Shown here: in pieces, positions 3,021 to 19,132 of the stretch
Numbering within the stretch: position 1 is the stretch's first letter
Layout of the letters: the number at the start of each line of letters is the position of its first letter
NCBI GenBank assembly: GCA_025362395.1
Contig: JANYGK010000041.1
Coordinates: 1 to 32,911, forward strand
Source: Bacteroidota bacterium
GTDB taxonomy: Bacteria > Bacteroidota > Bacteroidia > B-17B0 > Aurantibacillaceae
Direction: 5' to 3'
DNA length: 32,911 nt
Notes under the pieces: generated by a model
Told to the model about the DNA's origin: nothing
Database searches by the model: none
The model's input: only the letters and a program-made list of their open reading frames with translations
Made by a program: the position numbers and the translations under genes

Positions 3021-3854
3021 TTGAATAAAGATAAAGTAATAATTGATTCACATTTAGGTTCCTTTTTTTCTTTTAAAGAAATTATAAGGTATAAAAGCTT
3101 GCTTAATAACCTGGCAAAGCGCGATTTTTTAGTGCGTTACAAACAAGCGTTTGCGGGCATTATGTGGGCATTGGTTAAACCGTTGATCAGCATTTTAATA
3201 TTCGGGTATATTGCAAGTAAAATTAACAGTACTGAAACCACAGCTTTAAATTTTTTATATGTCGCTTCCGCTATATTATTATGGCAACTGTTCTCAACTA
3301 TTTTTAATGAAGTCAGTAATTCTATAGTGGGTAATGCAAATTTATTTTCGAAAGTGTATTTTCCTAAAATTATTATTCCTTTAAGCACTATTTTGGTTTG
3401 CCTGGTCGATTTTTTTATTTCCCTTATTATTTTAATTATTTTATTTATTGTGGCAGGACAACCCGTGCACTGGCAAATTATATTAGCTCCGGTATTTATT
3501 TTGCTGACTGTTATAAATGGTTTTGGTATCGGCTTATATTTTGCAACCATTAACGTAAAATTTCGTGATGTAAAATTTATAGTGCCGGTTATCATTCAAT
3601 TCGGAATGTACATAAGCCCGGTTATATTTTCTACAACGTATTATATGGAAAGATTACCAACATGGGTCCATTGGTTATTTTGTTTAAACCCTATGGTTGG
3701 TGCTATCGATGGCTTTAAATACAGTTTATTCGGTGGAAACGCTATTTATGATCTTAACTATTTTATTTTATCAATAGGGGTTTCGTTCCTGTTTTTATGC
3801 ATCGGTATAAAATATTTTTTTAAGTTCGAACGCAGCTTTGTTGATTATATATAA
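3021..3854 (+). CDS. wzm: ABC-2 type polysaccharide export permease (Wzm-like)
   Basis: A 277-residue inner-membrane permease of the polysaccharide/polyol-phosphate ABC-2 family (Wzm, TagG, KpsM). The N-terminal RDFLVRYKQAFAGIMWALVKP is the family hallmark preceding the first membrane helix, and about six hydrophobic segments follow. It would pair with the ATPase encoded next (start overlaps this stop by one base, TAATG) to move lipid-linked glycan across the inner membrane. The start is TTG at 3021: an in-frame TGA at 2994 excludes an upstream start, and the next in-frame ATG would delete the hallmark segment. It is the first gene of the locus, directly behind a candidate promoter. Confidence 0.9.
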   Translation: MNKDKVIIDSHLGSFFSFKEIIRYKSLLNNLAKRDFLVRYKQAFAGIMWALVKPLISILIFGYIASKINSTETTALNFLYVASAILLWQLFSTIFNEVSNSIVGNANLFSKVYFPKIIIPLSTILVCLVDFFISLIILIILFIVAGQPVHWQIILAPVFILLTVINGFGIGLYFATINVKFRDVKFIVPVIIQFGMYISPVIFSTTYYMERLPTWVHWLFCLNPMVGAIDGFKYSLFGGNAIYDLNYFILSIGVSFLFLCIGIKYFFKFERSFVDYI

Positions 3855-17803: not shown

Positions 17804-17852
17804 ATACAAACCGGCTTATTCTAAAATAGTAGATTTATAGTTGTAATTATTA

Positions 17853-19085
17853 ATGATTAAAAAAACCATAAATAAAAGTAAGACTAAGCCCGTTAAAAAA
17901 TTAACGGTGAAAGTTTCCGTCATTAAAAAAAATACTACAAAAGTTTCTTTATTTAAATCGGTAAAATTTGTCTTACAACAGGCTAAAAGTAGTGCGTACC
18001 GAACCGTAAATTACACTATGGTTATGGCTTATTGGAATATAGGGAAGCTAATAGTGGAAAACGAACAGAAAGGTAGCATTAAAGCCAAATACGGAGAGGC
18101 CACTTTACAATATTTATCTGCTAAATTAACCAATGATTATGGTGCCGGTTATAGTTTTCAATCGTTATCAAATATGCGACAATTTTTCACGGTATTTCCA
18201 ATTCTCTCCACAGTGTGGAGAGAATTCAATTCATTCGATACGTCTTTTTTTCCAACTGATTCACTAGATAAAAATAATAACTTAACTACGTCAGTAAGTA
18301 CTACTAACGAAATTAAAATTCTCTCTGCAGCGTGGAGAGAATTAACTTGGTCGCATTATAAAGCTTTAATGAGGGTTGAACACTCTGATGCCAGACTATA
18401 TTATATAAAAGAATGTGTAGAACAAAACTGGAGTGTGAGAGCCTTAGAAAGACAGATTAATACGTTTTATTATGAAAGAATTTTAAGCAGTAAAAAAAGA
18501 AATTCAGTAAAGAAGGAAAGTAAACAAAAAACAAATGAATTATTACCTTCTGTTATTGATTTTATTAAAGATCCTTACGTTTTAGAATTTCTTCAAATAA
18601 AACCAAGCATTCATTTATATGAAAATGATTTAGAAAAAGCATTGTTATCAAATATTCAACAGTTTATTTTGGAATTAGGTAAGGGCTTTGCATTTGTTGG
18701 AAGACAGCTGCATATTGATGCCGAAACGGAGCATTATTATATAGACTTAGTATTTTATAATTATATACTTAAGTGTTTTGTATTATTAGATTTGAAAGTA
18801 GGTAAATTAACACATCAGGATGTTGGCCAAATGGATATGTATGTAAGGATGTATGAGGATAAATACAAACAGGAGGGCGATAACCCAACAATAGGAATTA
18901 TTTTATGTTCTGAACAAAATGAATCAGTAATTAAATATTCAGTTTTAAAAGAAAGTAAACAGTTATTTTCTTCGCGCTACAAATTATTTTTACCATCGGA
19001 ACAAGAACTTAAAAATGAATTAGAAAGAGAGCGTACATTGATCGAACAACAAATAGAAAAAAGTAAAACTAAAGTAAAAAAGTAA
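17853..19085 (+). CDS. YhcG/DUF1016-family PDDEXK nuclease with in-frame palindromes
   Basis: A 410-residue protein with the two-domain YhcG/DUF1016 layout. The N-terminal DNA-binding-like domain is at about 35-210, with AYWNIGKLIVENEQKG and TWSHYKALMRV as hallmarks. A C-terminal PD-(D/E)xK nuclease domain follows (about 235-400: HYYIDLVFYN with Asp298, then LLDLKVGK with Asp313 and Lys315). The first 30 residues are Lys/Thr-rich and low complexity. Between the helical part and TWSHYK lies an unusual duplication: ILSTVWREF (117-125) and ILSAAWREL (156-164), each encoded by a 27-bp palindrome, with a Ser/Thr/Asn-rich 30-residue linker. The family is linked to defence islands and restriction loci, but no such partner lies here; its place inside a polysaccharide operon looks like an insertion. 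Confidence 0.88.
   Translation: MIKKTINKSKTKPVKKLTVKVSVIKKNTTKVSLFKSVKFVLQQAKSSAYRTVNYTMVMAYWNIGKLIVENEQKGSIKAKYGEATLQYLSAKLTNDYGAGYSFQSLSNMRQFFTVFPILSTVWREFNSFDTSFFPTDSLDKNNNLTTSVSTTNEIKILSAAWRELTWSHYKALMRVEHSDARLYYIKECVEQNWSVRALERQINTFYYERILSSKKRNSVKKESKQKTNELLPSVIDFIKDPYVLEFLQIKPSIHLYENDLEKALLSNIQQFILELGKGFAFVGRQLHIDAETEHYYIDLVFYNYILKCFVLLDLKVGKLTHQDVGQMDMYVRMYEDKYKQEGDNPTIGIILCSEQNESVIKYSVLKESKQLFSSRYKLFLPSEQELKNELERERTLIEQQIEKSKTKVKK
18200..18226. repeat. Palindrome copy 1, within the YhcG-like gene
   Basis: A 27-base perfect palindrome apart from its central G213: arms AATTCT/AGAATT flank the 15-base core CTCCACAGTGTGGAG. It is read in frame and encodes most of ILSTVWREF. Copy 2 is 24 of 27 identical and in the same reading frame. 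The same core occurs just after the gene (copy 3). Confidence 0.9.
18317..18343. repeat. Palindrome copy 2, within the YhcG-like gene
   Basis: A 27-base element starting 117 bases (39 codons) after copy 1 and in the same frame, encoding ILSAAWREL. Arms AATTCT/AGAATT are unchanged, and the core is CTCTGCAGCGTGGAG. The two left-arm changes against copy 1 (C to T, A to G) turn Watson-Crick pairs into G-T/G-U pairs, so an RNA hairpin would still form. Confidence 0.85.
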
Positions 19086-19088
19086 AAT

Positions 19089-19123
19089 TTCGAATAATCT
19101 CCACAGCGTGGAGATTATTCGAA
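19089..19123. repeat. Hairpin copy 3, downstream of the YhcG-like gene
   Basis: A perfect 16-bp stem with a 3-base loop (AGC at 19105-19107), lying 3 bases after the YhcG-like stop codon and ending 9 bases before the next start. The core CTCCACAGCGTGGAG is shared with copies 1 and 2. The outer arms (TTCGAATAAT/ATTATTCGAA) differ completely from theirs, yet are perfectly complementary. No T-run follows, so it is not a standard terminator; it could act in RNA processing or stability. Confidence 0.9.
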
Positions 19124-19132
19124 TCCGGTAAA

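Follow-up and report, generated by a model that had tools for sequence, protein, structure and literature searches.

Palindromic hairpins at a DUF1016 (YhcG) nuclease gene as probable binding sites of the protein encoded at the same locus

We analyzed a stretch of DNA of 32,911 nucleotides from a Bacteroidota bacterium (contig JANYGK010000041.1), which is called the window below. The three hairpins that lie at its DUF1016 (YhcG) gene are probably palindromes to which the protein encoded at that locus binds as its cognate sites. Sequence comparison supports the existence of a class of such sites, its restriction to DUF1016 loci, a constraint acting at the level of DNA, and a covariation between residues of the protein and bases of the site. 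As for physical binding, the participation of a symmetric dimer and cutting by the DUF1016 protein, we infer them.

The hairpins of the window and the gene beside them

The non-coding palindrome at positions 19089-19123 consists of TTCGAATAATCTCCAC-AGC-GTGGAGATTATTCGAA. That is, a perfect 16-bp stem closes on a 3-nt loop, as the first-pass annotation had stated, and the hairpin begins 3 bp past the stop codon (19085) of the DUF1016 gene. When folded as RNA, it reached -22.8 kcal/mol (z = -7.0), and 0 of 200 shuffles were as good. Its core, CTCCACAGCGTGGAG, is also found at 18206-18220 with one mismatch and at 18323-18337 with two mismatches, both of which are G.T pairs, and 0 of 100 shuffles reached an equal number of matches. 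The earlier claim that the core is shared with two coding copies was thus right as to the sharing, but the copies are not exact. With up to two mismatches allowed, the 4.08-Mb genome contains the core at only three places, all of them at the DUF1016/YhcG gene, and the suspicion that it might be a common unrelated motif was not borne out by this genome-wide check.

The first coding palindrome (AATTCTCTCCACAGTGTGGAGAGAATT, 18200-18226) covers residues 117-125 (ILSTVWREF) in an extra loop of the N-terminal domain. The second (AATTCTCTCTGCAGCGTGGAGAGAATT, 18317-18343) occupies the family-wide "site 2", directly before the LSWSHY motif, in the codon register that is common to 163 of the 175 coding palindromes collected. 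None of the three palindromes is assigned to a strand. We numbered the arm bases k outward from the centre of each palindrome. Bases k2-k7, the part that the protein would read, do not differ between the non-coding copy and coding copy 1 (inner CTCCAC/GTGGAG), whereas the outer arms differ (TTCGAATAAT vs AATTCT) and each is still paired, as had been noticed before. It had been concluded from this that selection acts on structure and not on arm sequence. This seems to hold for the outer arms, which look structure-only and whose pairing the residue-base code described below does not explain, but not for the inner 6 bp of each arm (k2-k7), which covary with residues of DNA-contact type in the ParB-like domain, so that sequence seems to be read there. 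The outer arms may be needed for the formation of a hairpin or cruciform, or may owe their perfect pairing to replication template switching. Elsewhere in the window, an A/T-flanked hairpin with a 14-bp stem (AAAAAGCTGCTTTAATATAAAGCAGCTTTTT, 1754-1784) lies between converging genes and is probably an ordinary bidirectional terminator.

The DUF1016/YhcG gene (17853-19085, plus strand, as are all of its parts given below) encodes 410 aa, comprising DUF1016_N (PF17761, 2.7e-38, 131.6 bits) and the PDDEXK nuclease YhcG_C (PF06250, 6.9e-56, 188.9 bits), against curated Pfam cut-offs of 32.8 and 32.5, respectively. Its product is a candidate for a cognate DNA-binding protein and nuclease in one. It also matches PADLOC PDC-S02 (E 5.4e-136), which is the label of a phage-defence candidate class. 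At 17804-19132 the gene interrupts a cluster of surface-glycan genes; in most relatives of the same genus its two neighbours are adjacent and the DUF1016 gene is absent. The window genome (G000) carries a second, distant DUF1016 paralogue (C23:9069-10202, L002), with two 17-bp-stem palindromes that have another core (GTCCRGTCASTGACYGGAC).

Residues 26-212 (17928-18488) form a ParB/Noc-like DNA-binding region. Residues 162-203 match HTH_ParB in Pfam (5.5e-5; 23.7 bits vs a cut-off of 22.6), and residues 55-212 of the AlphaFold2 model (pLDDT 82.9) align with the Noc DNA-binding domain at Z 7.1-7.3, a score that is middling by itself. A profile search of the PDB gave a weak match to Spo0J (E 0.86), and phmmer found nothing for this protein in the PDB. 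The ParB CTPase family is not among its Pfam entries, although absence from this list is no proof. In ParB and Noc, palindromes are bound symmetrically, and specificity lies in residues of the recognition helix and in residue 201 (PMC7383237). The putative recognition helix of the window protein is encoded by codons 101-107 (18153-18173), codons 167-170 (SHYK, 18351-18362) are placed like the GHAR motif of ParB, and codons 195-196 (VR) stand at 18435-18440. We equated G201-R204 of ParB with residues 167-170 by way of the HTH_ParB match and the motif position, not by residue-level structure alignment. The nuclease domain (18558-19022) is EndoMS/NucS-like. Its closest solved fold is 5gke (VIA-align Z 12.1), and its conserved residues E257, E274, D298 and K315 are invariant across 80 sequences. 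In a sequence analysis of 2005, the nuclease domain of YhcG had likewise come out near DUF91 and the YraN-like Holliday-junction resolvases (PMC1189080).

Palindromes at other DUF1016 loci

The DUF1016 genes compared came from genomes of Bacteroidota as well as from further genome contigs and contigs of viruses. In this sample, which is biased to Bacteroidota, at least one strong odd palindrome was found in or beside 146 of the 187 non-redundant genes, 200 palindromes in total. The density was 0.73/kb for the gene plus its flank, compared to 0.09/kb in the farther flanks of the same loci. The usual palindrome is about 27 bp long and has the form AATT-N8-RNY-N8-AATT, with CACTG or CAGTG often in the middle. 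Within the N-terminal domain, the coding palindromes occupy two homologous positions, mostly the one directly before LSWSHY; their common register extends across phyla, and some are repeated just outside the gene. A strict in-register site was present in 118 of the 167 full-length genes, whereas 8.7 were expected from synonymous-codon shuffles; about 30% of the full-length genes fail this strict test, many of them having shorter or one-mismatch palindromes. At site 2, the mean number of complementary pairs was 9.2 of 13 vs 5.4 expected. The stems vary from gene to gene, and complementarity is kept beyond what the codons require. The proposal that the hairpins form a family tied to this gene was upheld, as were the survival of complementarity through sequence change and the conservation in orthologous loci. 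All six plasmid-borne genes (Collinsella, Rhodococcus, Methylomonas, Burkholderia, Leptolyngbya and Deinococcus) had a palindrome.

Palindromes within one gene had the inner stem in common in 24 of 57 pairs, compared to 4.7 in permutations (maximum 12). A flanking copy stands just past the stop codon in one further locus (L136), as in the window and in E. coli, and the flanking palindromes of L118, L039 and L157 have a stem that is not that of their gene. In one locus (L041), two different DUF1016 genes stand next to each other in tandem, and each has a palindrome of its own. On the Methylomonas koyamae plasmid pLM6 (L256, 1120-2277), a DUF1016 gene with two palindromes lies between pglX and pglZ of BREX-1. 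We found no relevant paper on DUF1016/YhcG with hairpins or palindromes in the open-access literature searched.

In E. coli K-12, yhcG contains three palindromes within the gene and one 16 bp past its stop codon (positions 3630-3737 and 4471 of L217, NC_000913 3364500-3370500), and a further one lies about 28 bp past gltD (L254). In E. coli strains without yhcG, the interval from gltD to nanQ has only one palindrome, the left flank of which is that of the gltD side and the right flank that of the nanQ side. In the yhcG alleles of other E. coli strains the stems are different and still complementary, and multi-base compensated changes distinguish alleles that are both perfect palindromes (CGCCAGAC vs GTGCAGAC). 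The E. coli palindromes were searched by BLAST with a 34-nt query, in which each palindrome is counted twice, once per strand. Between two strains (L235 vs L236), the palindrome after yhcG shows a change of the central base from G to C with the arms unchanged, which is the appearance expected if the palindrome had inverted. Strain Z226-7 (L234, 2128-4020) has a partial tandem duplication of yhcG with palindromes kept in both parts.

Dispersal was examined by scanning 24 genomes with the pattern AATT-N7-CRNYG-N7-AATT. Among the matches listed there were 71 sites, of which 16 were palindromic. Fifteen of these lie on DUF1016-bearing contigs, and the sixteenth is the copy in G006, a genome of the window's own genus; none of the other 55 sites among the matches listed was palindromic. 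In this 24-genome sample, the palindrome class is not dispersed, occurring at DUF1016 loci and, apart from these, as a solo copy at one syntenic place. In G006 there is no DUF1016 gene, but the syntenic position holds a palindrome built on the window's 15-bp core; homology is clear only for the stretch before the hairpin and the hairpin itself (34.5 vs 20.5). A second near-match in G006 (C23:62061, L245) was rejected as chance, lying inside a phospholipase-D-like ORF and lacking the outer pairing. A suspected remnant of the gene start in G006 was likewise discarded, the left-junction alignment scoring 17 against a shuffle maximum of 18.5. The solo palindromes in the gene-less E. coli strains and in G006 may be either remnants after loss of the gene or sites that were there before its gain.

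Covariation between protein residues and palindrome bases

The residue-base code was read from 123 genes. R196 occurs with C at k2 in 74 of 74 cases. At k3, S167 goes with A (43/49) and G167 with C (16/16), and at k4, R170 goes with C (27/29). In the putative recognition helix, residues 101, 103 and 107 covary with k6, k7 and k5, respectively: R103 with G at k7 in 54 of 56 cases, and R or K107 with C or T at k5 in 34 of 38. Residue 195 also covaries with k3. Arginine is mostly opposite a G:C pair in this code.

A plain mutual-information comparison of columns with bases mainly reflected phylogeny, and we replaced it by tests that control relatedness. Partial correlations with relatedness removed were 0.63 for 196-k2, 0.51 for 167-k3 and 0.56 for 103-k7. 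After this correction, the strongest residues outside the palindrome codons were 196 for k2, 167 for k3, 170 for k4 and 103 for k7; residue 101 was first for k6, residue 107 was second behind residue 272 for k5, and at k9 no residue outside the hairpin-coded ones stood out. We also counted changes of residue and base on the same branch of the nuclease-domain tree and compared them with random placement. The counts against the random means were 23 vs 5.4 for 167-k3, 19 vs 3.7 for 103-k7, 11 vs 1.7 for 107-k5 and 5 vs 0.45 for 170-k4, none of these co-changes being opposite. For 196-k2, the 3 co-changes (random mean 0.85, maximum 4) were within the random range.

When bases were predicted by training only on genes less than 45% identical, the columns that came first or shared first place were, for k3-k7 in turn, 195 (with 167 second), 170, 107, 101 and 103, and for k2 no column, residue 196 included, was clearly above baseline. 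In eight held-out genes, 38 of 48 bases were predicted vs 31 of 48 at baseline, which is a modest gain. Because the palindrome also encodes residues 118-124, part of the code could be mimicked by coupling within the protein, for example between residues 167 and 120. This is made less likely by the Arg-to-G chemistry and by the matching non-coding copies.

Competing explanations, possible function and related systems

If the stem worked as RNA, G.U pairs would be tolerated, though on the coding strand alone. At k2-k9 of the coding palindromes, G.T mismatches (26) and A.C mismatches (30) were equally frequent (p = 0.69), which indicates that the palindromes are constrained as DNA and not as RNA. 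It is therefore highly improbable, in our estimation, that the hairpin works in mRNA as a terminator, a processing or stability element or a cause of ribosome pausing. Such a role would suit the stable RNA folds and the position within and directly past the ORF. The first-pass annotation had reported that a T-run is missing; this is true of the plus strand, which was not flagged as terminator-like, but the minus strand has a weak T-run (ATTTTACTTT) and was so flagged. The G+C-rich hairpin followed by a coding-strand T-run that marks an intrinsic terminator was not found at 19089-19123, the Rfam search of the hairpin gave no family (best 22.4 bits vs a threshold of 45), and an RNA element would not predict covariation with a DNA-binding domain. 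Pure coding constraint, by which a helix peptide IxxxLxxQL happens to be encoded as palindromic DNA, is scarcely credible: site 2 does encode a conserved helix position, and the AATT ends do correspond to Ile and Gln/Glu-Leu codons, but the excess over synonymous-codon shuffles is large, and the non-coding copies outside the ORF, which have the same inner stem, refute it.

Mutational bias, namely template switching (quasi-palindrome correction) together with gene conversion and without selection on binding, accords with the compensated changes between alleles of one species and with the concerted inner stems within genes. We consider it improbable as the whole explanation, since it does not account for why the palindromes keep to a single gene family and, across phyla, to one codon register, nor for the residue-base covariation in the ParB-like domain, although quasi-palindrome correction may help to keep the palindromes perfect. 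The hairpins might also belong to a selfish unit like REP/RAYT, in which the hairpin is a mobile or end-recognition element, DUF1016 the mobilizing nuclease, and the in-gene copies insertions. The copies directly past the stop codon (window, L136, E. coli), the hairpins after gltD and yhcG in K-12 as against the single gltD/nanQ-flanked one in gene-less strains, the syntenic hairpin of G006, and the patchy distribution of the gene, with up to 15 matches per genome, all speak for it. However, dispersal beyond the gene is absent among the matches listed in the 24 genomes, the left junction in G006 does not align above shuffles, and the gene is PDDEXK plus ParB-like rather than a Y1 transposase. 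We thus regard such a unit as unlikely, and the REP-like dispersal that had been suggested earlier was not supported: the palindromes are confined to DUF1016 loci, and the gene is not a RAYT.

We return to the reading of the hairpins as cognate binding sites. The ParB/Noc-like domain of the DUF1016 protein would be expected to bind the palindrome as a symmetric dimer, the two identical subunits reading the two half-sites, and each gene lineage would have its own site sequence. Because identical subunits would read both halves, the site would stay palindromic and change only in step with the residues that read it. The main site would lie within the gene, flanked by the codons of the recognition helix and of the other contact residues, so that one stretch of DNA would carry both the reader and its site; extra copies such as 19089-19123 would stand just outside the gene. 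Since the sites are found at the gene and nowhere else, a function in cis is most likely. Our first choice, which we hold tentatively at somewhat less than an even chance, is self-recognition, in which the protein binds its own gene and thereby holds the level or position of the nuclease in check; such autoregulation or tethering would restrain a potentially harmful nuclease. Our second choice, a weaker possibility, is cutting or recombining at the sites to keep or move the gene. Classical homing was considered and fits poorly because there are more sites in alleles that have the gene than in those without it.

It is conceivable, though we lean slightly against it, that DUF1016/YhcG genes in general are self-addressed nuclease units, whose palindrome within the codons of the DNA-binding domain is recognized and possibly extruded and cut. 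If this is true, specificity and target would evolve and travel together, and a previously undescribed principle of self-targeting, serving regulation or selfish persistence, would be at work across bacteria. DUF1016/YhcG is very common, being found in 92 of 247 sampled Bacteroidota genomes, in most E. coli, on plasmids, in phages, and in BREX and restriction operons. With a readable code and a cognate site per gene, the DNA specificity of DUF1016 is directly testable, including in E. coli K-12, and more than 100 protein-site pairs offer a natural library for the evolution of DNA recognition.

Among known systems, ParB-parS and Noc-NBS resemble the present one in the helix-turn-helix domain, with the same apparent fold, and there the palindrome is read by a symmetric dimer. 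In those proteins the recognition helix is responsible for reading the outer bases and the helix of G201/R204 for reading the inner ones (PMC7383237); the counterparts here, in the same order, would be residues 103 and 107 (k7 and k5) and residues 167 and 170 (k3 and k4). Unlike ParB and Noc, DUF1016 has a PDDEXK nuclease as its partner domain, and its sites are odd palindromes, lineage-specific, present at the gene only, and placed inside the codons of the reading domain across phyla. The nuclease domain is alike in fold to the mismatch endonuclease EndoMS/NucS, whereas the N-terminal domain is different. REP/RAYT (TnpA_REP) systems are similar in that palindromes of lineage-specific sequence are linked to the gene of a DNA enzyme and have flanking copies, but the DUF1016 palindromes are not dispersed over the genome, have in-frame copies in the gene, and go with another enzyme fold; the window gene is DUF1016_N plus PDDEXK in Pfam and not a Y1/IS200-like transposase. 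Rickettsia palindromic elements are in-frame palindromes inside ORFs, reported from many unrelated genes. The DUF1016 palindromes share with them the in-frame position inside protein genes, and differ in being confined to one gene family, in having a fixed register, and in covarying with the host protein.
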